A stretch of 64,000 nucleotides of DNA from Streptomyces sp. NBC_00654 (GTDB lineage: Bacteria; Actinomycetota; Actinomycetes; Streptomycetales; Streptomycetaceae): assembly GCF_026341775.1 (NCBI RefSeq), contig NZ_JAPEOB010000001.1, forward strand, positions 3,596,001-3,660,000. Direction: 5' to 3'. The notes beneath the pieces are model-generated. The model was not told the DNA's origin. It searched no databases and saw only the letters and a program-made list of their open reading frames with translations. This document shows, piece after piece, positions 5,729 to 18,345 of the stretch (the first letter of the stretch is position 1; each line of letters opens with the position of its first letter). The translations under genes were made by a program, and so were the position numbers.

Positions 5729-6580
5729 TCAGGCCACCACGGACATGCCCGTGCGCAGGCGTTGCACGATCCGCGACAGCAGCCGCGACACATGCATCTG
5801 GGAGACGCCCAGCTCCGCGCCGATCTGTGCCTGCGTCATCTCGTCCCCGAACCGCATCTGGACGATTCTGCGCTCCCGCTCGTCCAGCTGCTCCAGGAGC
5901 GGCGCCAGGGTGTGCAGGTTTTCGACGGTCTCCATGGCGGGGTCCGTCTCGCCCAGCAGATCCGCGTAGGCCCGCTGGTCCTGACCCGAGTCGCTGTCGG
6001 CCGACGGGGTGTCGAGGGAACCCGCCGAATAGCCGTTGGCGGCGACCAGACCCTCGATGATCTCCTCCTCCGGGAGGTCCAGACGGGCGGCGAGCTCCTT
6101 GACCGTGGGTTCGCGGTCCAGCTCCGCCGACAGCTGTTCCTTGGCCTTCGCCAGGTCCACGCGCAGTTCCTGGAGCCGCCGCGGCACGTGGACGGACCAG
6201 GAGGTGTCCCGGAAGAAGCGCTTGATCTCGCCGACGATGTACGGCACGGCGAAGGTGGCGAACTCGACCTCCCGGGACAGGTCGAAGCGGTCGATCGCCT
6301 TGATCAGCCCGATGGTGCCGACCTGGATGATGTCCTCGGTGTCGTCACCGCCGCGGTTGCGGAACCGGGAGGCGGCGAAACGCACCAGCGACAGGTTCAT
6401 CTCGATGAGGGTGTTGCGCGCGTACTGGTACTCGTGCGTGCCCTCCTCAAGGACCTGGAGCCGGTCGAAGAACACCTTCGACAGGGCGCGGGCGTCCTGT
6501 GGCGCGACCTTCCCGGTCTCCTCGATCCAGGGCAGTGTGCCCGGGTCGGCTCCGGTGGTTCGCACGGACATGGCCGCCAT
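5729..6580 (-). CDS. SigB/SigF/SigG-family RNA polymerase sigma factor
   Basis: The 283-aa group 3 sigma factor has recognisable regions 2 (NLSLVRFAASRFRNRG, DIIQVGTIGLIKAIDRFD, FATFAVPYIVGEIKRFFRD), 3 (SVHVPRRLQELRVDLAKAKE) and 4 (LDERERRIVQMRFGDEMTQA, then IGAELGVSQMHVSRLLSRI). These stress or developmental sigma factors are normally held by RsbW-type kinases and released by partner switching. An RsbW-like gene lies downstream, and a PP2C/SpoIIE phosphatase gene lies 16 kb away. GGCAGGGAGGG lies just upstream of the ATG at 6580, supporting that start. Which of the paralogous Streptomyces SigB-type factors this is cannot be decided from the sequence alone. Confidence 0.93.
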   Translation of the reverse strand: MAAMSVRTTGADPGTLPWIEETGKVAPQDARALSKVFFDRLQVLEEGTHEYQYARNTLIEMNLSLVRFAASRFRNRGGDDTEDIIQVGTIGLIKAIDRFDLSREVEFATFAVPYIVGEIKRFFRDTSWSVHVPRRLQELRVDLAKAKEQLSAELDREPTVKELAARLDLPEEEIIEGLVAANGYSAGSLDTPSADSDSGQDQRAYADLLGETDPAMETVENLHTLAPLLEQLDERERRIVQMRFGDEMTQAQIGAELGVSQMHVSRLLSRIVQRLRTGMSVVA

Positions 6581-6821
6581 GGTGTCGCCCTCCCTGCCGT
6601 CGGATGTGTCGATGCGCGCCTGCCCAGCAATACGGAGGTCATGCGTCCGGGCGCGCTCTTCTGCCGCAGGTCGAGTCCATGTCGATAAATCGTCGAACGG
6701 ATGTCGACAAAGGGTCGGGCGGACACGAACGGAGCAGCGTTCGGCTCATGGCAGACTTGACCGGGGTGTTTCGGCCTGCGGTGACCAGTGGCCCGCAGGG
6801 ACAGATGGCAGAGGATCGGCA

Positions 6822-8306
6822 ATGACGGTGACAGAGGACAACCCGGAGTTCGCTCCCGGAATCGAAGAGTTCGGTGCCGGTATCGACCCGGAGCGACTGG
6901 CCGTCTGCCTGAGCGTGCTCGACGAACTCGACTCCATCGAGATCGACCACCCGGACGCCGTCGCCGTGCGCCGGGCCACCGCGGGCGTCTACCGCACGGT
7001 GAAGCAGCGCCGCCGCCAGGAGCGCCGGGCGGCGAAGACCGCGCACGACAAGGCCGTCACCGAAGCCACCGCGACCGGCTCCGCCGAGCGCATCGACGAC
7101 GAGACCCAGGGCGTCCTGCCCTCGTCCTCGGCCGAGGCGGAGATCGCCGGGATACTCCAGCGGCCCCGGTCCTGCTACATCTGCAAGACCCGCTACGTCG
7201 AGGTGGACGCCTTCTACCACCAGCTCTGTCAGCGGTGCGCCAAGGAGAACCGGGCCCGGCGCGACGCCCGGACGGACCTCACGGGGCGCCGTGCGCTGCT
7301 CACCGGCGGCCGGGCGAAGATCGGTATGTACATCGCGCTGCGGCTGCTGCGCGACGGTGCGCACACCACCATCACCACCCGCTTCCCCAACGACGCGATC
7401 CGCCGCTTCAAGGCGATGCCGGACAGCGACGAGTGGATCCACCGGCTGAAGATCGTCGGCATCGACCTCCGTGACCCGGCCCAGGTCGTGGCTCTCGCCG
7501 ACTCGGTCGCCGCCGAGGGGCCCCTGGACATCCTGATCAACAACGCCGCCCAGACCGTGCGCCGGTCCCCGCAGGCGTACAGCGAGCTGGTCGGTGCGGA
7601 ATCGGCGCCGCTGCCCGCGGGCGAGCTGCCCGCGGCCGAGGTGATCGGCACCTTCGGCAGCGGCACCGTGGACCGGGTCGCCGCGCTGCCCGCCGCCCGC
7701 AGGGAGGGGCTCAGCGCGCAGGACGTCACCGAGCTCGCCCTGGTCACGGGCTCGGCCTCGCCGGCGCGCATCGCCGCCGGTACCGCGATCGACGCGGGCG
7801 GGCTCGTCCCGGACCTGCACGACACCAACAGCTGGATCCAGACGGTCGAGGAGGTCGAGCCGATCGAGCTCCTCGAAGTCCAGCTCTGCAACTCGACCGC
7901 GCCGTTCATCCTGATCAGCCGGCTCCGCCCGGCGATGGCGGCCACGGCCGCGAAGCGCGCGTACGTGGTGAACGTCTCCGCGATGGAGGGGGTCTTCAGC
8001 CGCGGTTACAAGGGCGCCGGCCACCCGCACACCAACATGGCCAAGGCCGCCCTGAACATGCTGACCCGCACCAGCGCCCAGGAGATGTTCGAGAAGGACG
8101 GCATCCTGATGACCGCCGTCGACACCGGATGGATCACGGACGAGCGTCCGCACCCCGACAAGATGCGCCTCGCCGAGGAGGGCTTCCACGCCCCTCTCGA
8201 CCTGGTCGACGGTGCCGCCCGGGTCTACGACCCGATCGTGCGCGGGGAAGAGGGCGAAGAGCTGTACGGCTGCTTCCTCAAGGACTACGCGCCCGCGGGC
8301 TGGTGA
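6822..8306 (+). CDS. large SDR-family protein with N-terminal Cys4 segment
   Basis: The 494-residue protein has an N-terminal region of about 150 aa with a charged helical stretch and a zinc-finger-like Cys4 motif (C118-x2-C121 and C136-x2-C139). A Rossmann-type SDR domain follows, with a nucleotide-binding motif variant LLTGGRAKIG, DLRDPAQV, ILINNAAQT and VVNVSAMEG. The expected YxxxK catalytic motif reads TNMAK, so the catalytic tyrosine appears absent and the reaction is uncertain. An insertion between residues about 255 and 320 separates the two halves of the fold. The start at 6822 gives the best conserved N-terminus; an AGAGG lies upstream. The gene is followed by a hairpin and seems monocistronic. 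It may be an oxidoreductase-like regulatory or binding protein; function unknown. Confidence 0.78.
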   Translation: MTVTEDNPEFAPGIEEFGAGIDPERLAVCLSVLDELDSIEIDHPDAVAVRRATAGVYRTVKQRRRQERRAAKTAHDKAVTEATATGSAERIDDETQGVLPSSSAEAEIAGILQRPRSCYICKTRYVEVDAFYHQLCQRCAKENRARRDARTDLTGRRALLTGGRAKIGMYIALRLLRDGAHTTITTRFPNDAIRRFKAMPDSDEWIHRLKIVGIDLRDPAQVVALADSVAAEGPLDILINNAAQTVRRSPQAYSELVGAESAPLPAGELPAAEVIGTFGSGTVDRVAALPAARREGLSAQDVTELALVTGSASPARIAAGTAIDAGGLVPDLHDTNSWIQTVEEVEPIELLEVQLCNSTAPFILISRLRPAMAATAAKRAYVVNVSAMEGVFSRGYKGAGHPHTNMAKAALNMLTRTSAQEMFEKDGILMTAVDTGWITDERPHPDKMRLAEEGFHAPLDLVDGAARVYDPIVRGEEGEELYGCFLKDYAPAGW

Positions 8307-8336
8307 TCCGGGGCCGGTTCTCCCGGCCCCCGGATC
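8305..8336 (+). terminator. terminator hairpin after the SDR gene
   Basis: An inverted repeat (GATCCGGGGCCGG with CCGGCCCCCGGATC, one bulged base, 5-nt loop) begins at the SDR stop codon and would end its transcript. Confidence 0.7.
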
Positions 8337-8351
8337 CGCCGATGGCGGAAA

Positions 8352-8365
8352 GTGACCCAGGCCAC
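8352..8365. promoter_or_regulatory. Crp-like site upstream of the small gene
   Basis: GTGACCCAGGCCAC matches the Streptomyces Crp consensus GTG-N6-GNCAC exactly. It lies in the 298-bp intergenic stretch between the SDR gene and the 57-codon gene at 8605. The rest of that stretch (8366-8604) holds a relatively AT-rich promoter-like segment around 8390-8412 and nothing else recognised. A short degenerate site can occur by chance. Confidence 0.4.
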
Positions 8366-8604
8366 ACGTTCTGTCGAGCGCGATGACGCTCATTTGGTTA
8401 CTCTGAAGTGAACGGACGGCACCGAGGGATCCACGAACCTTCCTCGACCGTCCTGGGACAGGCCTGCAACCAGGTCGTCGTCCCGCCCCATGCCGGCGCC
8501 ACCGCGACCGAACTGTTCCTGCCCCTGCCCCCGAGGGCGGTCGGTCCACGGCCGAGAGGTCGCGCCGTAACTGTCCGGGGTTACGCGACACAGAGGAGTG
8601 CGCG

Positions 8605-8778
8605 GTGACACCAGAACTGACGAAGGACGAGAAGCGGCCCGCCGAAGGGCACGGAGAGCGGGCCGGACGGCCCGAGAAGCTCCGGAACATCGAGGTCTGG
8701 GCCAGGTCCGCACCCATCCGGCTGGCCGGCTACGAGGACGACCTCGCCGAGCCGCACATCCTGCCCGGCATCGACTGA
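8605..8778 (+). CDS. small conserved-looking protein of unknown function (57 aa)
   Basis: A GTG start at 8605 with a good Shine-Dalgarno (GAGGAG, 6-nt spacing) opens a 57-codon frame ending in TGA at 8778. About 88 percent of codons end in G or C, as in the neighbouring genes. The first half is highly charged (Lys/Glu/Arg-rich). The C-terminal part, SAPIRLAGYEDDLAEPHILP followed by GID, looks like a constrained, conserved segment. There is no signal peptide, no cysteine and no transmembrane helix. The gene is isolated by hairpins on both sides (8305-8336 and 8797-8849), so it is its own transcription unit. The leader-core look recalls peptide precursors, but no modification enzyme is adjacent. 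I do not recognise the family. Confidence 0.7.
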   Translation: MTPELTKDEKRPAEGHGERAGRPEKLRNIEVWARSAPIRLAGYEDDLAEPHILPGID

Positions 8779-8796
8779 CAGTCGTAGCCGCACACC

Positions 8797-8849
8797 GCAC
8801 CGCCGAGCCCCGGCTCCCGCACCCGCGGGGGACCGGGGCTCGGTGGTGC
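8797..8849. terminator. bidirectional terminator between small gene and crcB
   Basis: A 17-bp stem with one mismatch (8797-8813 with 8833-8849) lies between the 3' ends of the plus-strand 57-aa gene and the minus-strand crcB gene, so it can serve both. Confidence 0.75.
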
Positions 8850-8887
8850 GAGAGGCCCGGCAGCCCGGGCCCGCGCGGCCGGTCCCG

Positions 8888-9265
8888 TCACCGGACCGCG
8901 CCGGCCAGGGCGGCCCCGGCGAAGGACAGTCCCACGCCCGCGCCGACGCTGACGCACAGGTAGGCGCCGGCCGCGGCGACGCGGCGTGCGGAGGCCAGGG
9001 CCAGCAGCTCGTACGAGAGCGTCGACCAGGTCGACAGGGCCCCGCAGAAACCGGTGGCCAGCAGCAGGTGGACCCGGGACCCCAGATCCCCCTCGGACGC
9101 CCCTTCGGCGACGAATCCGAGGATCAGCGCGGCGGCCGCGTTCGCCGCGAAGGTGCCCCAGGGGATGGCGGTGTGGACGCGGGACGTGACCGCGGCTCCG
9201 GTCAGATAGCGGAGCGGGGCGCCCACGAGACCGCCGGCCAGGACGAGCAGCCAGTCGAGCGTCAT
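8888..9265 (-). CDS. crcB: fluoride exporter CrcB/Fluc, second subunit
   Basis: The 125-aa membrane protein has four predicted helices and Fluc signatures: GGLVGAPLRYLTG near the N-terminus, GTFAANAAAALILGF, and GFCGALSTWSTLSYE in helix 3. Fluc channels are dual-topology dimers that export fluoride. High-GC Gram-positive bacteria often encode two different subunits in tandem, and this gene overlaps the upstream crcB by 4 bp (ATGA), consistent with a heterodimer made from a coupled operon. The start ATG at 9265 is fixed by that overlap. No fluoride riboswitch was found in the correct orientation. Confidence 0.9.
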   Translation of the reverse strand: MTLDWLLVLAGGLVGAPLRYLTGAAVTSRVHTAIPWGTFAANAAAALILGFVAEGASEGDLGSRVHLLLATGFCGALSTWSTLSYELLALASARRVAAAGAYLCVSVGAGVGLSFAGAALAGAVR

Positions 9266-9729
9266 GCGGTCACCCCGTTGCCGCTCCGGCGGCCCAGCAC
9301 CGCGCGCGTGGCGTACACGCCCGCGGTCACACCCGCGAGAGCCGCGACGACGGTCAGGACCAGGCAGCCGACCGCGTACCCGGGGGATCCCTCCTCGAAC
9401 AGCCGGCGCACGTCGTCGGTGTAGTGGGAGAACGTGGTGAATCCGCCGAGCGCGCCGGTGCCCAGCAGTGGATTCAGCAGAGCCGGCGCACCGGTGAACC
9501 GTTCCTTGAGGGCCACCATCAGGATCCCCATCAGCAGACAGCCCACGGCGTTGATCAGCAGGACGGTCCAGGGGAAGGACGACTCCCCGTCCGGCCACAG
9601 GCGCTCCGCGCCGTAGCGTGCCCCGGCGCCGATGGCGCCGCCGACGGCCACGGCGGCGACCACGGGGCCCTGTCTGCCGGGGGAGTGATCGGGGTGAGCG
9701 TGTTCGCGCGAAGGGGATCTGAGGGACAC
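9262..9729 (-). CDS. crcB: fluoride exporter CrcB/Fluc, first subunit
   Basis: The 155-aa four-helix membrane protein has the Fluc family pattern: GGAIGAGARYGAERL, WTVLLINAVGCLLMGIL with the conserved membrane Asn, and GALGGFTTFSHYTDD with the conserved TTFS break in helix 3. It is somewhat longer than usual because of a polar N-terminal extension of about 25 residues; an internal start cannot be excluded. The downstream crcB starts within its stop codon, so the two subunits are probably translated in a coupled way and assemble as a heterodimeric fluoride channel. It is divergent from the urea transporter across a 200-bp AT-richer intergenic region. Confidence 0.9.
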   Translation of the reverse strand: MSLRSPSREHAHPDHSPGRQGPVVAAVAVGGAIGAGARYGAERLWPDGESSFPWTVLLINAVGCLLMGILMVALKERFTGAPALLNPLLGTGALGGFTTFSHYTDDVRRLFEEGSPGYAVGCLVLTVVAALAGVTAGVYATRAVLGRRSGNGVTA

Positions 9730-9929: not shown

Positions 9930-10892
9930 GTGCCCTCCGCCGAAGCGCGACAGCACCAGAGGTCGAAGGCACCGCAGCCGCTGGCCTACTTACTCGCCTC
10001 CGTGCGCGGAGTCGGTCAGGTGGATCTCCAGCCCGGCGCCTGGACGGGCGCCGTCATCCTTCTCGGACTGTGGGCGGCGGGCTGGGAGACCGGTCTCTTC
10101 GCCACCCTCGGCACACTGATCTCCACCGCCACCGCCTACGCCCTCGGCGTGGACCGCTCGGGCATCGCGCTGGGTCTCCAGGGGTACTGCGGCTGCCTCA
10201 CCGGCATCGCCCTCGTCAGCTCGCTGGGCCACCATCCGGCCACCTATGTGCTCGCCGTCATCGGCGCCATCATGTGCACGCTCCTCATGGCGGCCCTCAC
10301 CACACTGCTCGCCCCCTACGGACTGACCGCGCTCACCGCGCCGTTCTGCCTGGTCTCCGGAGTCATGGTGCTCGGAGCGCCCTCCTTCGGCCGGATCTGG
10401 CACGGTGACCCGGCACCCGTGTCCAGCACGACCAGCGGGGACACCGCACTGTCCTGGGACGACCTCTGGCACGGCTTCTTCACCAACGTCTCGCAGGTGT
10501 TCCTGGTCGACGACTGGTATGTCGGACTGATCATGCTCGTGGGCCTGGCCCTCGCCGGGGTCCGTGTGGTCCTGTTCGCCGTCGCGGGCAGTGCCGTCGG
10601 GATCTTCGCCGCCTGGGCGCTCGGAGCGCCCGCCGAACTGATCGCCAACGGGATCTACGGCTACAACGCGGTTCTCGTGGCCATCGCCGTCGGTGCGGTC
10701 CTGCTGGCCGGCACTGTCTGGAACGCGGTGTACGCGCTGTTCGGAGCCGCCGCCACCACCGGCCTGACGGCATCGCTGACCTCACTGTTCAAACCCTTCG
10801 GCGGCCATACCTTCACCTGGCCGTTCATCCTCACGACCTGGGTCCTCATGGCCGCCGTGCCGCTCCTGCCGCGCTTCCGCCCGAGCGACTGA
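9930..10892 (+). CDS. urea transporter
   Basis: The 320-aa integral membrane protein has about ten helices and the duplicated organisation of the bacterial UT/Yut urea channel family (for example GLQGYCGCLTGIALVSSLG and, in the second half, NGIYGYNAVLVAIAVGAV). It passes urea across the cytoplasmic membrane for the urease encoded by the following genes; ureA begins 55 bp downstream. The GTG start at 9930 has a Shine-Dalgarno (ACGGAG) 6 nt upstream. Codon 21 is TTA (9990-9992), a rare codon in Streptomyces read by the bldA tRNA, so translation may be developmentally limited. A later start that would bypass this codon has no good ribosome site. Confidence 0.92.
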   Translation: MPSAEARQHQRSKAPQPLAYLLASVRGVGQVDLQPGAWTGAVILLGLWAAGWETGLFATLGTLISTATAYALGVDRSGIALGLQGYCGCLTGIALVSSLGHHPATYVLAVIGAIMCTLLMAALTTLLAPYGLTALTAPFCLVSGVMVLGAPSFGRIWHGDPAPVSSTTSGDTALSWDDLWHGFFTNVSQVFLVDDWYVGLIMLVGLALAGVRVVLFAVAGSAVGIFAAWALGAPAELIANGIYGYNAVLVAIAVGAVLLAGTVWNAVYALFGAAATTGLTASLTSLFKPFGGHTFTWPFILTTWVLMAAVPLLPRFRPSD

Positions 10893-10947: not shown

Positions 10948-11253
10948 ATGAACCTCGCGCCTCGCGAGATCGACAAACTGCTCGTGTACGTCGTGGCCGA
11001 CCTGGCCCGCAAACGCCAGGGCCGCGGTCTCAAGCTCAACTACAGCGAGTCGGTGGCACTGATCACCGAAGCCATCCTCGAAGCGGCCCGGGACGGAAGG
11101 AGCGTGGCCGACTGCATGGAACTCGGCCGCCATGTCGTTGGCGAGGACGACACGATGCCCGGCGTACGGGAGATGCTCGGCCTGCTCCAGGTCGAGGCGT
11201 CCTTCGTCGACGGCACGAAGCTCGTCTCCTGCCACGACCCCATCGGCGGCTGA
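10948..11253 (+). CDS. ureA: urease subunit gamma
   Basis: The 101-aa protein matches the UreA family over its whole length (MNLAPREIDKLLVYVVADLA, LNYSESVALITEAILEAARD, PGVREMLGLLQVEASFVDGT). It is the smallest structural subunit of the nickel urease that hydrolyses urea to ammonia and carbamate in the cytoplasm. A strong ribosome site (GAGGAAGG) precedes the ATG. It follows the urea transporter and precedes a CbiX-like gene rather than ureB directly, which is unusual for ureABC operons. Confidence 0.97.
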   Translation: MNLAPREIDKLLVYVVADLARKRQGRGLKLNYSESVALITEAILEAARDGRSVADCMELGRHVVGEDDTMPGVREMLGLLQVEASFVDGTKLVSCHDPIGG

Positions 11254-11258
11254 CCCCG

Positions 11259-12164
11259 GTGGCCGGGCGATGCCGGGTGATCGTTGTCTGCGGACACGAG
11301 GCCGCGTACGGGCGGGCCGTGGCGGACCTGACGGGTCCGGACGTGACCGTGGTGCCCGGCGGACGGGAGCTGTTCCGGTGTCTTGCGGAGCTGGGCCGCC
11401 GGGGGGAGGAGAGCTGTGTCGTACCGATGACGCTCGGGCGCGACCCCGAACTCGTCGCCGACACCGCCCGTACGCTCCGGGCGCTGCCCGCGAAGGACCG
11501 GGCGGGGACGGTCCTGGCCGAACCGTTCGGCACCGCGCAGCACCTCGTCGGCTGGCTGCGGGCCGCCGCGGGCCGGGTACCGGCCTCCGACGCGCTGCTC
11601 GTCACGGCACCTTCCGGGGATCCGTTCGAGGACGCCGAGCTGTACCGGGTCGCGAGTCTCGTGCGGCGCTACGGGAACCACCCGCTGGTCGAGGTGGCGT
11701 TCACCGGCGGTGACCCCGATCCCGCGCAGGGGGTGCGGCGCTGTCTGCTGCTGGGCGCCGCCCGGGTGGTGGTGCTGCCGGCGGCGTTCGCGGTGCCCGG
11801 GGTCCCGGAGGTGCCGGGCGCCCGGGTCACCGTCGCCGGCCCGCCGGTGTCGCGCTCCGCCCTGCTGCGGGTGCTCGCCGAACGGGTCTTTGACGCCCTG
11901 CGCCGACGCGAGCACGGCGACGACGGGATCGCCGCCGGACTGGGCGCCGCCGACCACCACGGCCACCACCACACCCACCCACCGGGCGAGGGCCACGAGC
12001 ACGGCCACGAGCACGGCCACGAGCACGGTCAGGCACCCGGCCACAGCCATGGTCACGTCCATGTCCCCGCCCACGGCGGGGGCCGGCACGACGACAGCCA
12101 CGAGCACCCGCATCAGCACCCGCACGCCCCCGGCGCGGGACACGTTCTCAGGAGCTCCGCATGA
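11259..12164 (+). CDS. CbiX/sirohydrochlorin-chelatase-like protein with His-rich tail (putative nickel protein)
   Basis: The 301-aa protein begins with a CbiX-type class II chelatase fold in two halves ([20 protein letters not shown]; then [38 protein letters not shown]). It ends in a tail of about 65 residues with roughly two dozen histidines in HE/HG repeats (about 230-295). The first chelatase-type histidine (H13) is kept, but the position expected for the second (G-x-H in CbiX) reads G-R-D. The gene lies between ureA and ureB, starts 5 bp after ureA, and its stop overlaps the ureB start by 4 bp, so it is co-translated with urease. No ureE is present. By analogy with His-rich UreE and HypB, nickel storage or delivery is a reasonable inference; cobalt chelation for cobalamin is less likely here. 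GTG 11277 is an alternative start. Confidence 0.85.
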
Positions 12165-12781
12165 CGTTCCGTCAGAAATACATCTACGGCAAGGACCCCG
12201 TCGAGATCAACGCGGGCCGCCGCACGGTGACGCTCACCGTCAGCAATACCGGCGACCGCGCGGTCCAGGTCGGCTCGCACTACCACTTCTTCGAGGTGAA
12301 CTCCGCGCTGTCCTTCGACCGCCAGCAGGCGCTCGGCATGCACCTCAACATCCCGGCAGGCACCTCCGTACGCATCGAACCCGGCGGCACGCGCGAGGTC
12401 GAACTCTGCGCCTATGCCGGAACGGGCCGGCTCGTCGGCTTCAGCGGACTGCTCAACGGCAGCCTCGCCTCCCACCCCGCGAAGGTCGAGGCCGTGCGCA
12501 AGGCCATCGAGCAGGGCTTCCAGGGCGCCGAACAGCCCCCGAAGGCCGCGGTGGCGCCCCGCGCGAAGAGCCCGCGCAAGAACGCGAGCCCGAAGACCAC
12601 GACCGGTGCCAAGAACGCGAAGGCCACGCCCGGCACCAGGAGCGTGAAGGCCGCTCCGAGCGCCAGGAGCGCGAAGGCCGCGGCAGGTGCCAAGGGCGGG
12701 AAGGCCGCCGCGGGCGCCAAGAACGCGAAATCCACGACCGGCGCCAAGAGCGCGAAGACCAAGAAGAAGGGTTCGCGCTGA
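12161..12781 (+). CDS. ureB: urease subunit beta with Lys/Ala-rich extension
   Basis: Residues 1 to about 105 are a standard UreB domain ([60 protein letters not shown]). The remaining roughly 100 residues are an extension absent from ordinary UreB proteins of about 102 aa. It is rich in Lys, Ala, Gly, Ser and Thr and built from degenerate repeats such as [10 protein letters not shown] and [13 protein letters not shown], ending in TKKKGSR. Such tails resemble the basic tails of histone-like proteins; its role here is unknown. The start overlaps the upstream gene by 4 bp and the stop overlaps ureC by 1 bp, so stoichiometric coupled translation is expected. Confidence 0.95.
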
Positions 12782-14505
12782 TGCCCATCCTGCCCCGCAA
12801 GCAGTACACCGACATGTTCGGCCCGACGGTCGGTGACCGGTTCCACCTCGCCGACACCAACCTCGTCGTCGAGGTCGAGAAGGACTTCAGCGAGGGCCAG
12901 TACGGCGACGAGGTCCTCTACGGCGGCGGAAAGACCATGCGTGACGGCATGGCGGCCTCCCCGCAGGCGACCAGCGGCCAGGGCGCGCTGGACACCGTCA
13001 TCACCAATGTCGTGGTCATCGACCCCATGGTGGGCGTCGTCAAGTGCGACATCGGGATCAAGAACGGGATGATCGCCGGGATCGGCAAGTCCGGCAATCC
13101 GCAGACGCAGAACAACGTCGACCCGAACCTGGTCATCGGCCCGGGTACCGAGGCCATCGCGGGCGAGCACCTCATCGCCACCGCCGGGGCCATCGACAGC
13201 CACGTCCACCTGATCGCCCCGCAGCAGGCCGAACAGGCGCTGACCAACGGCATCACCACCCTCATCGGCGGTGGTACCGGTCCCTCGGACGGCACCAACG
13301 GCACCACGTGCACCCCCGGTCCCTACAACATCGCCCGTTTCCTCCAGGCTGCCGAGGCCTGGCCGGTGAACCTGGGCATCATGGGCAAGGGGAACGGCAG
13401 TCTGCCGGAGGCCCTCGACGAGCAGATCGAGGCCGGAGCCTGTGCCCTGAAGGTCCACGAGGACTGGGGTGCCACCCCGGCCGTCATCGACAACGCGCTC
13501 AATGTCGCGGACCGCTACGACGTCCAGGTGTCCATCCACACCGACAGCCTGAACGAGAGCGGCTTCTTCGAGGACACCCGCTCCGCGATCGACGGCCGCG
13601 CGATCCACACCTTCCACAGCGAGGGCGCGGGCGGCGGTCACGCCCCCGACATCATGCGAGTGGCCGGCGAGCCCAACATCCTGCCGTCCTCGACCAACCC
13701 GACGCTGCCCTACACCAAGAACTCCGTCGATGAACTCCTCGACATGGTCATGGTCTGTCACCACCTCAGCCATGACATCCCCGAGGACGTGTCCTTCGCC
13801 GACAGCCGGGTCCGCGCCGAGACGATCGCCGCCGAGTCGGTGCTCCACGACCTCGGCGTGATCAGCATGTTCTCCTCCGACTCCCAGGCCATGGGCCGGG
13901 TCGGTGAGTCGGTGACCCGCGCCTTCCAGACGGCGCACCACTGCAAGGACAAGCTGGGAATCCTGGAGGGCGACTCCGCCCGCAACGACAACCAGCGGGT
14001 CCTGCGCTATCTGGCGAAGGTCACCATCAACCCGGCCATCGCCACCGGTATCGCCGACCATGTGGGCTCCCTGGAGAAGGGGAAGATCGCCGACATCGTG
14101 CTCTGGCCCATCCACTCCTTCGGCGCCAAGCCGAAGATGGTCATCAAGGGCGGCATCATCTCCTGGGCGCAGATGGGCGACCCGAACGCCTCACTGCCCA
14201 CTCCGCAGCCGGTCATCTACCGTCCGATGTTCGGGCAGTTCGGCAAGGCGCTGCCGGCCACCCATGTCACCTTCATGTCGCAGGCGGGCATCGCCGCGGG
14301 CGTCCCGGCGGAACTCGGCCTGGACCGCACGATCCTGCCGGTGCGCGGTACCCGCACGATCGGCAAGCACAACATGGTGCGCAACAACGCGCTGCCGGAC
14401 ATCCAGGTGGACCCGGAGACCTTCAAGGTCACCCTCGACGGCAAGGTCGCGACGATCGACCCGGCCGAGGAACTGCCCCTCAACCACCTGTTCTTCCTGG
14501 TCTAG
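12781..14505 (+). CDS. ureC: urease subunit alpha
   Basis: This 574-aa catalytic subunit is of typical length. The nickel ligands are visible: the HxH pair in [13 protein letters not shown], the carbamylated lysine in [10 protein letters not shown], the histidine in [13 protein letters not shown], the histidine in [15 protein letters not shown], and the aspartate in [10 protein letters not shown]. The mobile flap motif [14 protein letters not shown] with its general-acid histidine is also intact. The enzyme is therefore probably active. Maturation needs UreD, UreF and UreG, encoded immediately downstream, and a nickel supply for which only the CbiX-like gene is a local candidate. The start overlaps the ureB stop by one base. 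Confidence 0.98.
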
Positions 14506-14519
14506 GGCCTGAAACCCCG

Positions 14520-15296
14520 ATGTACCTCAACGAGCGCGAGCATCCCGGCCGCCCGGCCGCCCCGGCACCGCCACCCGTGGTGCCGCCGGCCGGGCCCGCC
14601 GGGACCGGACCGGACCTCGCGGCGCTGCTGACCGGTCTCCAGCTGACCGATTCGGCCTTCCCGAGCGGCTTCTACACGCTGTCCCACAGCCTGGAGGGAT
14701 ACGCCCACGCGGGGGCCGTCGACGCCGCCACCCTGCCGTCGCTGCTGGAGGACCTGCTGGTGCACGGCGTCGGTCCGGCGGACGCCACCGCCCTCGCCCT
14801 CGCCCACCGGGCCGCGGCGTCGGGCGACCTGGACGCGGTGGCGGACATCGACGAGCATCTGTTCGCCACCAAACTGGGCCGGGAGATGCGCCAGGCGTCC
14901 ACCCGGACCGGGCGGCAGCTCCTCGACCTGGGGGCGGAGGTCTTCGACCGGCCGTCGATCACCGCCTACTTCGACCGGGTCCGGCGCCGGGAGGCGCCCG
15001 GCACCCAGGCGGTCGCCGCCGGGGTCATCTACGCCGCGACCGGGGTCCCGGTCCGCCAGGCCGTCGCGGCCGACCTGTTCGCGTTCTGCGCCAGCTTCGC
15101 CGGTGCGGCCCTGCGGCTCAGGCTGACCGACCACCGGAAGGCCCAGACCCTGCTGCGGGGAGCCGCACCCGTCATCGAGCGTGTCGTCGAAGAGGCGCTG
15201 CGGCGCGAACTCGCCGATGTCGGCGCCACCGTCTTCGCCTCCGACGTCATGTCGGGCCGCCACGAACGCGCCGAGGCGCGCCTCTTCGCCAGCTGA
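14520..15296 (+). CDS. ureF: urease accessory protein UreF
   Basis: The 258-aa helical protein is of the UreF family (LTGLQLTDSAFPSGFYTLSH, SLEGYAHAGAVDA, FAFCASFAGAALRLRLTDH). UreF bridges UreD and the GTPase UreG in the complex that inserts nickel into urease and is thought to gate GTP hydrolysis. The first 35 residues are a Pro/Ala-rich extension. The gene begins 14 bp after ureC and precedes ureG. Order C-F-G-D is the usual Streptomyces arrangement. Confidence 0.95.
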   Translation: MYLNEREHPGRPAAPAPPPVVPPAGPAGTGPDLAALLTGLQLTDSAFPSGFYTLSHSLEGYAHAGAVDAATLPSLLEDLLVHGVGPADATALALAHRAAASGDLDAVADIDEHLFATKLGREMRQASTRTGRQLLDLGAEVFDRPSITAYFDRVRRREAPGTQAVAAGVIYAATGVPVRQAVAADLFAFCASFAGAALRLRLTDHRKAQTLLRGAAPVIERVVEEALRRELADVGATVFASDVMSGRHERAEARLFAS

Positions 15297-15325: not shown

Positions 15326-15946
15326 ATGGACGACAACGTACTGAGGGTCGGCGTCGGCGGACCGGTCGGCTCGGGCAAGACCGCCCTCATCGAGGCGCTG
15401 GTGCCCGTGCTCATCGCCCGGGGCCACCGTCCCTCCGTCATCACCAATGACATCTACACCCAGGAGGACGCCCAGCACATCCGCCGCACGCTCGACGGGA
15501 TCCTGGAACCGGAGCGGGTGGTCGGTGTCGAGACGGGCGCCTGTCCGCACACGGCCGTCCGCGACGACCCGACGATGAATCTGGCGGCGGGTGCCGAGAT
15601 GCTGGAGCGGTTCCCGGACACCGACACGCTGTTGTACGAGTCCGGCGGCGACAACCTCACACTGACGTTCAGCCCGGCCCTCGTCGATCTCTTCCTGTTC
15701 GTCCTGGACACCGCCGAGGGCGAGAAGATGCCGCGTAAGCGGGGCCCCGGTATCACCGATTCCGATCTGCTCGTCATCAACAAGATCGATATCGCGAAGT
15801 ATGTGCGCACGGACATCGGGATCATGGAGTCCGACGCCCACCGGGTCCGTGACAACCGCCCCGTCGTCCTCACCGACTGTCTCACCGGCATCGGTATCGA
15901 GGACATCGCGGGCTATCTGGAATCCCGCCGCAAGGTGCTGATCTGA
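15326..15946 (+). CDS. ureG: urease accessory GTPase UreG
   Basis: The 206-aa SIMIBI-class GTPase has a P-loop (GVGGPVGSGKTALIEAL), the switch region with the metal-binding CPH motif (GVETGACPHTAVRDDP), the ESGGDNL motif and the guanine-specificity NKID (INKIDIAKYV). UreG carries nickel and couples GTP hydrolysis to its delivery into apo-urease. It lacks the N-terminal His-rich extension seen in some plant and actinobacterial UreG proteins, so metal storage must be elsewhere; the His-rich CbiX-like protein of the same operon is a candidate. An AAGGGAGCACC sequence supports the ATG. Confidence 0.97.
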   Translation: MDDNVLRVGVGGPVGSGKTALIEALVPVLIARGHRPSVITNDIYTQEDAQHIRRTLDGILEPERVVGVETGACPHTAVRDDPTMNLAAGAEMLERFPDTDTLLYESGGDNLTLTFSPALVDLFLFVLDTAEGEKMPRKRGPGITDSDLLVINKIDIAKYVRTDIGIMESDAHRVRDNRPVVLTDCLTGIGIEDIAGYLESRRKVLI

Positions 15947-15947
15947 C

Positions 15948-16928
15948 ATGCCGCCCGCCCCCGTACCCCCCATGGCGCCGCGGTCCGCCACGGACCGGCT
16001 CGCGCCGGGGTACTACACGGCGGCGCGCGTCCCCCCGGAGGTGGGGGAGCTGGCGTCCCTGCCCGATACGCTCGCCCCCGGCTCACCGGCGAAGGTCGGC
16101 ATCCTGGACCTGGGCTTCGCCGTCCGGGGCGGGCGCACGGAGCTGGTCGAGCGCTACCAGAAGACGCCGTTGCAGATCATGCGGCCGTTGTGGATCGATC
16201 CGGCGCTGCCCGGGATGAGTTACGTGTATCTGATGGCCACCGGCGGCGGGATCGCCCAGGCCGACCGCTACCGGATGGACTTCCGCTGCGGCCCCGGCAC
16301 CCAGGTGCATCTGACCACCCAGGCGGCGAGCAAGATCTTCCGGATGGAGCACGACTACGCGAGCCAGCGCGTGCACATCACGGCGGCGGAGGGCTCCTAC
16401 GTCGAATACCTCCCCGACCCGCTGATCCCGTTCAGGGACGCCCGGTTCTACCAGCACACCGACGTGACCGTCGCGCCCGGTGCCACCGTCGTCCTCGGCG
16501 ACACCGTCACCGCCGGGCGGCTCGCCCGCGGCGAGCGTCACGACTACCGGGTGCTCGCCACGGACCTGCGCATCCGCCGCCCCGACGGCACCCTGCTGGC
16601 CATCGACACCCTGCGGCTGGCGCCGGGCGGCGGCCGGGGCCGGGCGGAGGTCCTGGGGCCCGGGGTGTTCGCCGGGCACGATCATGTGGCCTCGCTCTAT
16701 GTCGTCACCGACCGCAGACCCGCGGCCGAGGTCGCCGACACCCTGCACCACGCACTGGCGGAACGCGGACTGCTGTACGGCGTCAGCGTGCTGCCGCGGG
16801 AGTGCGGCGCCTGGGTACGGCTCCTCGACGACAGCCCGGTCCGGGTCGCCGCCGCGAAGGACGCCGCCTGGGACGCCGTACGCCGTCTGCTCACCGGCCA
16901 CCCGGCCCCCGACCTGCGTAAAGCCTAG
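15948..16928 (+). CDS. ureD: urease accessory protein UreD (UreH)
   Basis: The 326-aa protein matches the UreD family in length and motifs (KVGILDLGFAVRGGRTELVE, YQKTPLQIMRPLWIDP, VHLTTQAASKIFRME, VEYLPDPLIPFRDARF). UreD is the scaffold that binds apo-urease and forms the nickel-transfer complex with UreF and UreG. The gene starts one base after the ureG stop region and is the last accessory gene of the operon. An N-terminal extension of about 40 residues precedes the core. Confidence 0.94.
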   Translation: MPPAPVPPMAPRSATDRLAPGYYTAARVPPEVGELASLPDTLAPGSPAKVGILDLGFAVRGGRTELVERYQKTPLQIMRPLWIDPALPGMSYVYLMATGGGIAQADRYRMDFRCGPGTQVHLTTQAASKIFRMEHDYASQRVHITAAEGSYVEYLPDPLIPFRDARFYQHTDVTVAPGATVVLGDTVTAGRLARGERHDYRVLATDLRIRRPDGTLLAIDTLRLAPGGGRGRAEVLGPGVFAGHDHVASLYVVTDRRPAAEVADTLHHALAERGLLYGVSVLPRECGAWVRLLDDSPVRVAAAKDAAWDAVRRLLTGHPAPDLRKA

Positions 16929-16995: not shown

Positions 16996-18345
16996 ATGAT
17001 CACCGCCCCCGCGCCGATGCCCCCCGCGTACGACTCCGGCGACACCGCCTGGCTGCTCGCCTCCACCGCGATGGTGCTGCTGATGACGCCGGGACTGGCG
17101 TTCTTCTACGGCGGTATGGTGCGCACCAAACACATCCTGATGATGATCAAGATGAGTTTCGCCGCGCTCGCCTTCGGCACCATCGTCTGGTGGGTGATCG
17201 GCTACACACTCGCCTTCGGCCCCGATGTCGGAGGAGCGGGAGTGATCGGCGATCTCGACCATGTGTTCATGCGCGGGATCGAACTGAACACCCTCACCGG
17301 TCACATCCCCACGTACGTCTACAGCACCTTCCAGATGGGCTTCGCCATCATCACCGTCGCGCTGATCAGCGGCTCGATCGCCGACCGCGCCACGATGAAG
17401 GGCTGGCTCGTCTTCGTCGTCCTGTGGCTGCTCATCGTCTACATCCCGGTCGCGCACTGGGTGTTCGACCAGGACGGCTGGATCGTGAAGCATCTGGGGG
17501 CACTCGACTTCGCCGGCGGTCTGCCGGTGGAGCTGAATTCCGGTGTCGCGGGGCTCGCGGTGGCACTGGTACTGCGCGCACCGCGCGACTTCGCACGCCG
17601 CGAGGAGCAGCCGAACAACATCCCGCTCGTCGTCGTCGGTGTCGCACTCCTCTGGTTCGGGTGGTTCGGCTTCAACTCCGGCTCCGCGCTCTCCGACCAG
17701 GGCACCGCGGCGGCCGCCTTCCTGAACACCCAGCTCGGCGCGGCGGGTGCCATGGTCATTTGGCCGCTGGTGGAGAGGTGGCGCACCGGCCGGGTCACCA
17801 CCATGGGTGTCGTCTCCTCCGCCGTCGCGGGCATGGTCGCCATCACCCCGGCCTGCGGGGAGATCAACACCCTCGGAGCCGTCATCACCGGTCTGGTCGT
17901 CGGCGCCGTCTGCGCCTTCGCCATCACGCTGAAGTACCGCTTCGGCGTGGACGACACCCTGGACGTCGTCGGTGTGCACGGGGTGGGCGGTCTGATCGGT
18001 CTGATCATGGTCGGGCTGTTCGCCACCGCGCGGATCAGCGGCAAGGAGGGGCTGTTCTACGGCGGCGGCTGGGGGCTGCTGGGCAAGCAGCTCGTCGCCA
18101 TCGTCTCGGTGATCGCGTTCTCCTTCGTCCTCACCTGGATCATCGCGAAGGCGGTGGACCTGACCGTCGGATTCCGTGCCCGCGACGAGTACGGCAGTGT
18201 GCCGGGCGAAGAGGTGGAGCGGGCCTACGACTTCCGGACCGCCGAGCGGCTGGGCGCGCTGGTCCAGGGCAGGGAAGGCACCAGCGACTCCGAACTCGTG
18301 GAGCAGATCGGCCGGTTGCTGAAGTCCCGCGAGGATGCCAAGTAG
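16996..18345 (+). CDS. ammonium transporter (Amt/MEP/Rh family)
   Basis: The 449-aa channel protein has eleven predicted helices and Amt signatures: DTAWLLASTAMVLLMTPGLA, FFYGGMVRTKHILMM, a periplasmic-vestibule segment, HWVFDQDGW, and GVHGVGGLIGLI with the second pore histidine. The C-terminal tail of about 70 residues after the last helix is Glu-rich and longer than in E. coli AmtB. It starts 67 bp after ureD on the same strand, so it is probably part of the urea operon and may recover ammonium leaking from urease. No glnK lies next to it; the main Streptomyces amtB-glnK-glnD locus is therefore elsewhere. Confidence 0.93.
   Translation: MITAPAPMPPAYDSGDTAWLLASTAMVLLMTPGLAFFYGGMVRTKHILMMIKMSFAALAFGTIVWWVIGYTLAFGPDVGGAGVIGDLDHVFMRGIELNTLTGHIPTYVYSTFQMGFAIITVALISGSIADRATMKGWLVFVVLWLLIVYIPVAHWVFDQDGWIVKHLGALDFAGGLPVELNSGVAGLAVALVLRAPRDFARREEQPNNIPLVVVGVALLWFGWFGFNSGSALSDQGTAAAAFLNTQLGAAGAMVIWPLVERWRTGRVTTMGVVSSAVAGMVAITPACGEINTLGAVITGLVVGAVCAFAITLKYRFGVDDTLDVVGVHGVGGLIGLIMVGLFATARISGKEGLFYGGGWGLLGKQLVAIVSVIAFSFVLTWIIAKAVDLTVGFRARDEYGSVPGEEVERAYDFRTAERLGALVQGREGTSDSELVEQIGRLLKSREDAK

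Follow-up and report, generated by a model that had tools for sequence, protein, structure and literature searches.

What does a chelatase-like protein with a long histidine-rich tail do when its gene lies between the genes of the two small urease subunits? Such a gene was found in the window, as we call the whole stretch of 64,000 nucleotides analysed here from Streptomyces sp. NBC_00654 (contig NZ_JAPEOB010000001.1 of assembly GCF_026341775.1, positions 3,596,001 to 3,660,000, forward strand). We coined the name UCX for this urease-operon CbiX-like protein. The cluster is ordered as urea transporter, ureA, UCX, ureB, ureC, ureF, ureG, ureD and an ammonium-transporter-like gene, and its features are collected in Table 1. 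An earlier note, made from the sequence, had described a class II chelatase-like fold with a tail of about 24 histidines, encoded by a gene that begins 5 bp downstream of ureA and shares 4 bp with ureB, and our analysis agrees with it on each of these points, the fold being a predicted one. For the nickel supply of ureases that lack UreE, UCX offers a concrete candidate for another carrier.

Table 1. Features of the urease cluster and its surroundings, in window positions.
Feature	Position	Strand	Evidence or remark
Two adjoining crcB-like fluoride exporter genes, beside the urease cluster	8888-9663	-	One of the two scored: best NCBIfam match 77 bits, below its cut-off
Urea transporter (UT family), first gene of the cluster	9930..10892	+	PF03253 4e-84; start codon uncertain
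ureA, urease gamma subunit	10948..11253	+	PF00547 1e-40; NF009712 over cut-off
UCX, CbiX-like with His-rich tail, 301 aa	11259..12164	+	Alignment, model, Pfam, locus context
UCX chelatase-fold core (predicted), residues 1-221	11259..11921	+	Alignment A1 and structure model
UCX His-rich tail, residues 222-301, 24 His	11922..12161	+	Composition; mostly predicted disordered
ureB, urease beta subunit, 206 residues	12161..12781	+	PF00699 5e-40 over residues 6-100
UreB C-terminal extension, Lys/Ala-rich	12470-12781		About 100 residues past the urease beta domain
ureC, urease alpha subunit	12781..14505	+	TIGR01792 over cut-off
ureF	14520..15296	+	PF01730 9e-37
ureG, N-terminus MDDNVLRVGV	15326..15946	+	TIGR00101 over cut-off
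ureD (ureH)	15948..16928	+	PF01774 1e-54
Ammonium-transporter-like gene, last gene of the conserved cluster	16996..18345	+	Gene call; name from sequence reading

Some of the neighbouring genes recur elsewhere. A urea transporter gene lies upstream of ureA in most of the 80 loci compared by tblastn context, and kin of the ammonium-transporter-like gene occur in 12 of 19 compared loci, on either strand. Urease is inhibited by fluoride, and kin of the scored crcB-like gene are seen at seven of the 19 loci, the window included, from Streptomyces, Kitasatospora, Actinomadura and Streptosporangium.

The body of UCX carries four motifs, namely GHE (residues 12-14), PMTLGRDP (56-63), a motif of 11 residues (122-132) and RC (161-162), and is followed by a tail with 24 His in 80 residues. 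In the AlphaFold model, based on an alignment of 22 family members, the body is confident and pLDDT falls below 50 in residues 236-241, 243-270 and 272-301. No Pfam or NCBIfam model reached its cut-off on UCX, CbiX being the nearest; PF01903 gave 18.7 bits against a curated cut-off of 22, and it matched 18 of the 22 members at E 0.1 or better (best 4.5e-6). Both Foldseek and VIA-align grouped the model with SirB, CbiK and ferrochelatases, residues 110-196 superposed on the CfbA monomer at 1.8 Å over 87 residues, and a comparison of the UCX profile with three ordinary actinobacterial CbiX/SirB proteins gave 98% probability over 207 columns. These structure matches and the profile comparison place the predicted fold of the body among the class II chelatases, in their two-lobed form.

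The active site is degenerate. Class II chelatases are described in the cited sections of PMC11301274 and PMC7689651 as carrying a catalytic His pair, located in one lobe of the two-lobed forms, and UCX lacks such a conserved pair, since at most one of the four chelatase His positions is kept. The first N-lobe His is retained as H13 of GHE; the second position is E64, which is variable and adjoins GRDP. In the C-terminal half A117 stands opposite His9 of CfbA, and residues 142-218 of the window protein contain no His. The earlier note had seen one of the two usual chelatase His as apparently replaced (G-R-D instead of G-x-H), an observation that our analysis confirms. Among 108 UCX rows, GHE was found in 93 and GYE in two (one of them L157), while the pattern missed 13; the Tyr in these two rows speaks against H13 serving in metal binding throughout the family. 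The Fe-S motif MxCxxC of CbiX-L was absent from all 69 rows examined, including the window protein, whose only Cys residues are at 5, 11, 41, 53 and 162. The UreE_N domain (PF02814) was not among the Pfam matches of UCX at E 1, and neither Pfam nor NCBIfam gave UCX a match to the P-loop GTPase domain of the G3E GTPases UreG/HypB. Ordinary CbiX-family genes lie elsewhere in the window's genome (four matches at two places) and in all five other UCX genomes tested. UCX could in principle be a working tetrapyrrole chelatase like CbiX, SirB or CfbA that sits in the urease operon by chance, as its predicted fold, the database names of its relatives (CbiX or sirohydrochlorin chelatase) and the His tail reported for canonical CbiX-L in the cited part of PMC7689651 would allow. 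However, the lost histidines, the Tyr at the one position that is kept, the missing MxCxxC, the ordinary CbiX-family genes elsewhere in the genome and a urease linkage that spans many genera all speak against this, and we regard it as extremely improbable.

The extent of that linkage was determined through a family scan with one genome per species; 110 loci were confirmed, and the comparison used the 80 best among them. The order ureA-UCX-ureB was found by tblastn context in 65 of the 80; in seven the contig ends after ureA-UCX (L097, L102, L107, L109, L110, L143, L152), in one it begins at UCX before ureB (L168), and in six UCX is free-standing (L139, L147, L148, L150, L155, L167). One further locus, listed as L130 and L288, holds a UCX with 16 tail His between a short ureA match and ureF-ureG-ureD, without a ureB or ureC match. 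Urease-linked UCX occurs in Streptomyces, Kitasatospora, Streptacidiphilus, Mangrovactinospora, Catenulispora, Rhodococcus/Prescottella, Speluncibacter, Smaragdicoccus, Actinomadura, Streptosporangium and Microtetraspora, and in total 486 proteins match the UCX profile at E 1e-8. The possibility raised in the earlier note, a new use of the CbiX fold, gains support from the loss of the catalytic His in a family that is conserved and syntenic. Beside the UCX urease cluster of L144 lie divergent NikC-/NikA-like ABC transporter genes (5865-9329 of that locus, below curated cut-offs), and kin of these genes occur in three Rhodococcus/Prescottella loci.

The tail varies greatly. The 78 urease-linked rows counted have a median of 17 tail His, ranging from 5 to 34 with one further row of 75, a count that left out 23 rows (seven cut at contig ends, one masked and 15 without an exact GRDP anchor). 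Free-standing relatives have 0-4 tail His (18 rows, four of them fetched twice, corresponding to 14 genes), and one genome (G043) holds two such relatives without a urease alpha match; the UCX body must therefore have some role apart from urease. Short-tailed free-standing relatives of this kind come from Catenulispora-like genomes (L062-L066, L068-L075, L087), and many of these adjoin genes that, from sequence reading, resemble trehalose-phosphate synthase/phosphatase.

The earlier note had proposed that UCX is a nickel carrier or store for urease that replaces UreE and occurs exactly where ureE is missing. The window's own genome and 60 relatives were searched for ureE, urease alpha and UCX: urease alpha was matched in 52 of these 61 genomes, and UCX at E 0.001 in 19, of which 13 were strong matches (E below 1e-30) and the six weak ones are probably ordinary CbiX. 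UreE was found in a single genome and absent from the other 60, with or without UCX. Absence of ureE is thus general among these 61 genomes and uninformative about UCX, and we dropped the presence or absence of ureE as a test. The genomes with UCX clusters covered by the UreE search number 19, seven of the 61 and 12 from outside Streptomyces. In three of these 12 a ureE gene is present, some 1.7 kb away from a second ureG; it is distant from the UCX cluster or lies on a different contig. At the genome level this is one of the findings that the note had named as refuting its idea. What survives is the nickel carrier or store, to which both the position of the gene and the pattern of UreG described below lend support, with the binding of nickel itself inferred. 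The partner that alternates with UCX is the His stretch of UreG, not ureE.

Genomes that have ureG and lack ureE were reported to carry a His stretch on UreG, including those of Streptomyces coelicolor and S. avermitilis; Bradyrhizobium japonicum and Frankia CcI3 depart from this rule, and for them the authors could only assign the nickel role to HypB (PMC2770081, in the sections cited here). No Frankia name appears among the best 120 of the 486 UCX profile matches or the best 80 of the 110 loci. In the window, UreG has a short N-terminus without His, and its C-terminus is not His-rich. Across the family, wherever both UreC and UreG of a UCX cluster could be read (97 clusters), UreG has no more than one His from its start to the P-loop. 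In 93 of them the count is zero (92) or one (1); the other four (L289, L302, L307, L308) were among 56 clusters first called UCX-less and were reassigned by hand because UCX lies at or over the contig end, and their UreG is His-free. The remaining 52 UCX-less clusters have at least three His in 42 cases, two in four and none in five (L210-L214); the last one, L208, was hand-coded as His-rich on account of an open His-rich frame upstream of the picked start, so that UreG is His-rich in 47 of 52. UreG starts were picked by a script from a start codon with a purine-rich upstream region, and among the 93 UCX clusters the distance from start to P-loop is at most 14 residues in 89 cases and 25-52 residues in four, these four having 0-1 His. 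Some genomes entered the UreG set twice from two collections. Leaving out near-copies for the tree reduced the 148 rows to 94, and here UreG was His-free in 54 of 54 rows with UCX and His-rich in 36 of 40 rows without it. At the other end of the protein, none of 148 UreG sequences has three or more His in the last 35 residues (one more was incomplete).

The five clusters L210-L214 occur in genomes that lack ureE, namely Catenulispora-like ones and one relative. They have neither a UCX nor a His-rich UreG, and a urease cluster can apparently do without both. Three of these genomes have a free-standing UCX, one has UCX in its other cluster and one has none. The 12 non-Streptomyces UCX genomes contain seven further UreG over the cut-off, beyond the UCX clusters already counted within the 93: three, with ureE at a distance of about 1.7 kb, are free of His (MKKTTRIGI), and four, in genomes without ureE, are His-rich.

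The alternation can also be followed inside single genomes. The window's genome holds four ureC over the cut-off and a single copy of UCX. The window cluster combines UCX with a His-free UreG, and the three other clusters each have a His-rich UreG, which starts MHLDHSHDG... in L078, has HAHAHSHAHAPTHAP at the N-terminus and HSHAH at the C-terminus in L077, and has a C-terminal HLHTHAHGQDPAH in L079. These His-rich UreG could also serve the UCX cluster in trans in Streptomyces. Three Rhodococcus/Prescottella genomes pair a cluster that has ureE with one that has UCX, and the UreG of each is His-free. Speluncibacter, Smaragdicoccus, Actinomadura and two Streptosporangium genomes each have one UreG over the cut-off and no UreE, and in Speluncibacter and the two Streptosporangium genomes the search found no HypB over its cut-off either. 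Judged from the searches for UreG, UreE and HypB, UCX is in these three genomes the only His-rich candidate found for a nickel protein of urease.

Clusters that lack UCX within its own clade show the pattern reversed. A class-wide search for UreD of the window's type at E 1e-40 found it in only two of 296 genomes, which was too sparse, and the survey was therefore made within the genus. Among 392 genomes, this UreD occurs at 42 places in 37 genomes, and UCX gave 32 matches in 28 genomes, equal to 30 genes as two genes are in two pieces each. Of the 42 places, 30 have UCX, nine are complete clusters without it and three are without ureABC matches. Of these last three, L279 and L280 show UreF- and UreD-like genes of the window's type with no UreG or UreC match nearby, and L277 shows ureF-ureG-ureD with an ammonium-transporter-like gene and no ureABC matches. 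All nine UCX-less clusters, L076 included, are otherwise complete, their UreC is 75-76% identical to that of the window, and their UreG starts MHDPxQ... with a His run. The position of UCX between two small-subunit genes in those 65 of 80 loci, together with a tail of such variable length, might suggest instead that UCX belongs to this urease type as one of its subunits or as a structural chaperone, the tail mattering little. We hold this to be very unlikely, given nine related clusters that are otherwise complete without UCX and a His swap with UreG that would then be a coincidence.

UreC trees were built from 94 rows with a quick method and from 47 rows with a C20 mixture and bootstraps; rows without a UreG found, with a short UreC or with less than 53% UreC identity were left out, and UreG with at least two His was coded as His-rich. 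The nine UCX-less UreC fall inside the UCX clade, with Smaragdicoccus (96/97) and Rhodococcus plus Speluncibacter (100/98) branching off earlier, and none of 200 bootstrap trees put all UCX-bearing rows on one side. The tree is explained most simply by a single gain of UCX, with which the UreG stretch was lost, and a single loss of UCX, with which a stretch returned, the direction of these changes resting on rooting with other ureases as outgroup. On the UreC tree there are two independent contrasts of opposite sign, and with only two a sign test cannot reach significance. Since a single deep split accounts for most of the contrast, one urease clade may simply have inherited UCX together with a short UreG, without any functional link. 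We consider such a lineage effect unlikely, as it leaves aside the reversal nested inside the UCX clade, the contrasts within single genomes and the general rule for UreE-less ureases published in the cited sections of PMC2770081.

Given this evidence, we think it probable that UCX is a nickel-binding urease accessory protein whose His tail supplies or stores nickel for UreG-UreF-UreD. On its way to urease, nickel is complexed with UreG and passes through a UreF-UreD tunnel (PMC10121161, cited part). We infer that the UCX tail would bind nickel and load it onto UreG, which in UCX clusters lacks a tail of its own, so that UCX would do the job given to the UreG His stretch in other UreE-less ureases and to UreE in others. 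The body would be a former sirohydrochlorin chelatase that has lost its metal-insertion site, and its conservation would most likely reflect a specific platform for docking on an accessory protein, while H13-E14 of GHE and R61-D62 of GRDP perhaps form a second metal site. The tail may be older than the link to urease: two ordinary actinobacterial CbiX in alignment A2 have His-rich C-terminal stretches and, with those of B. megaterium CbiX-L, point to a metal tail that already existed and could be recruited. Synteny, the alternation with UreG, the nested reversal, the contrasts within genomes, the published UreG rule, the loss of the catalytic His and the presence of ordinary CbiX genes elsewhere all favour a nickel role; against it we count that there are two swaps only, the clusters L210-L214, the short-tailed free-standing relatives, the variable number of tail His, the Tyr at position 13 in two rows and, in Streptomyces, the chance that His-rich UreG of other clusters act in trans.

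A co-expressed nickel buffer or detoxifier would bind nickel by its tail as well and pass none of it to UreG. The tail length and His number vary as greatly as those of a bulk binder may, and the His stretch of a HypB binds 18 nickel ions per dimer according to the cited sections of PMC2770081. Such a buffer nevertheless leaves unexplained why the UreG stretch is absent with UCX and present where UCX has gone, and why the UCX body is conserved, and it seems to us an unlikely function. Returning to UCX as an accessory protein, a bolder form of the proposal would make it a third, independent solution for nickel delivery, in which a rebuilt GHE/GRDP pocket passes nickel from the tail into UreG/UreFD, so that a fold that inserts metal into a tetrapyrrole has become one that puts metal into a protein. 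In this form, His stretches have been exchanged between UreG and UCX on two or more occasions, running in opposite directions; we put this forward tentatively, leaning towards doubt.

The pattern of UCX and UreG suggests that a histidine module can move between proteins. If the nickel role is true, many database entries called sirohydrochlorin chelatase or CbiX would be urease accessory proteins under a wrong name. None of the titles and abstract openings listed from the open-licence literature describes a CbiX-like gene in a urease operon; in the parts cited here, CbiX appears as counts in a table of a Frankia paper (PMC4531530) and as a B12 marker (PMC2667541).

Several known systems share one or other feature with UCX. 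CooJ, Hpn and similar proteins are likewise rich in His and serve a particular nickel enzyme as its nickel proteins, and they are not known to have a chelatase-fold body. UreE has a proposed nickel role in urease maturation, as UCX may have, and some UreE carry a His-rich tail, whereas UCX has no UreE domain in Pfam and a predicted chelatase fold instead. From the class of His-rich urease nickel accessory proteins UCX has the location in the operon (65 of 80 loci) and the His-rich stretch, nickel binding being presumed. CfbA and SirB have their fold in common with UCX, CfbA handles nickel and its PDB chain shows a His-rich stretch in the alignment, but of their two His ligands UCX keeps at most one, and no tetrapyrrole genes were noticed beside UCX. 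The CbiX-L of the Bacillus megaterium type is a two-lobed class II chelatase whose His-rich C-terminal region resembles that of UCX and was proposed to serve in metal storage and delivery; it keeps two catalytic His and MxCxxC, of which UCX has neither, and it works in cobalamin synthesis, whereas UCX is located in urease operons (PMC7689651, cited part). A further likeness is the His stretch of UreG in Mycobacterium, Streptomyces coelicolor and others, also a His-rich extension where ureE is absent and suggested to compensate for UreE (PMC2770081, cited sections), whereas in UCX clusters the stretch is on a separate protein of chelatase fold, as predicted, and UreG itself is His-free.
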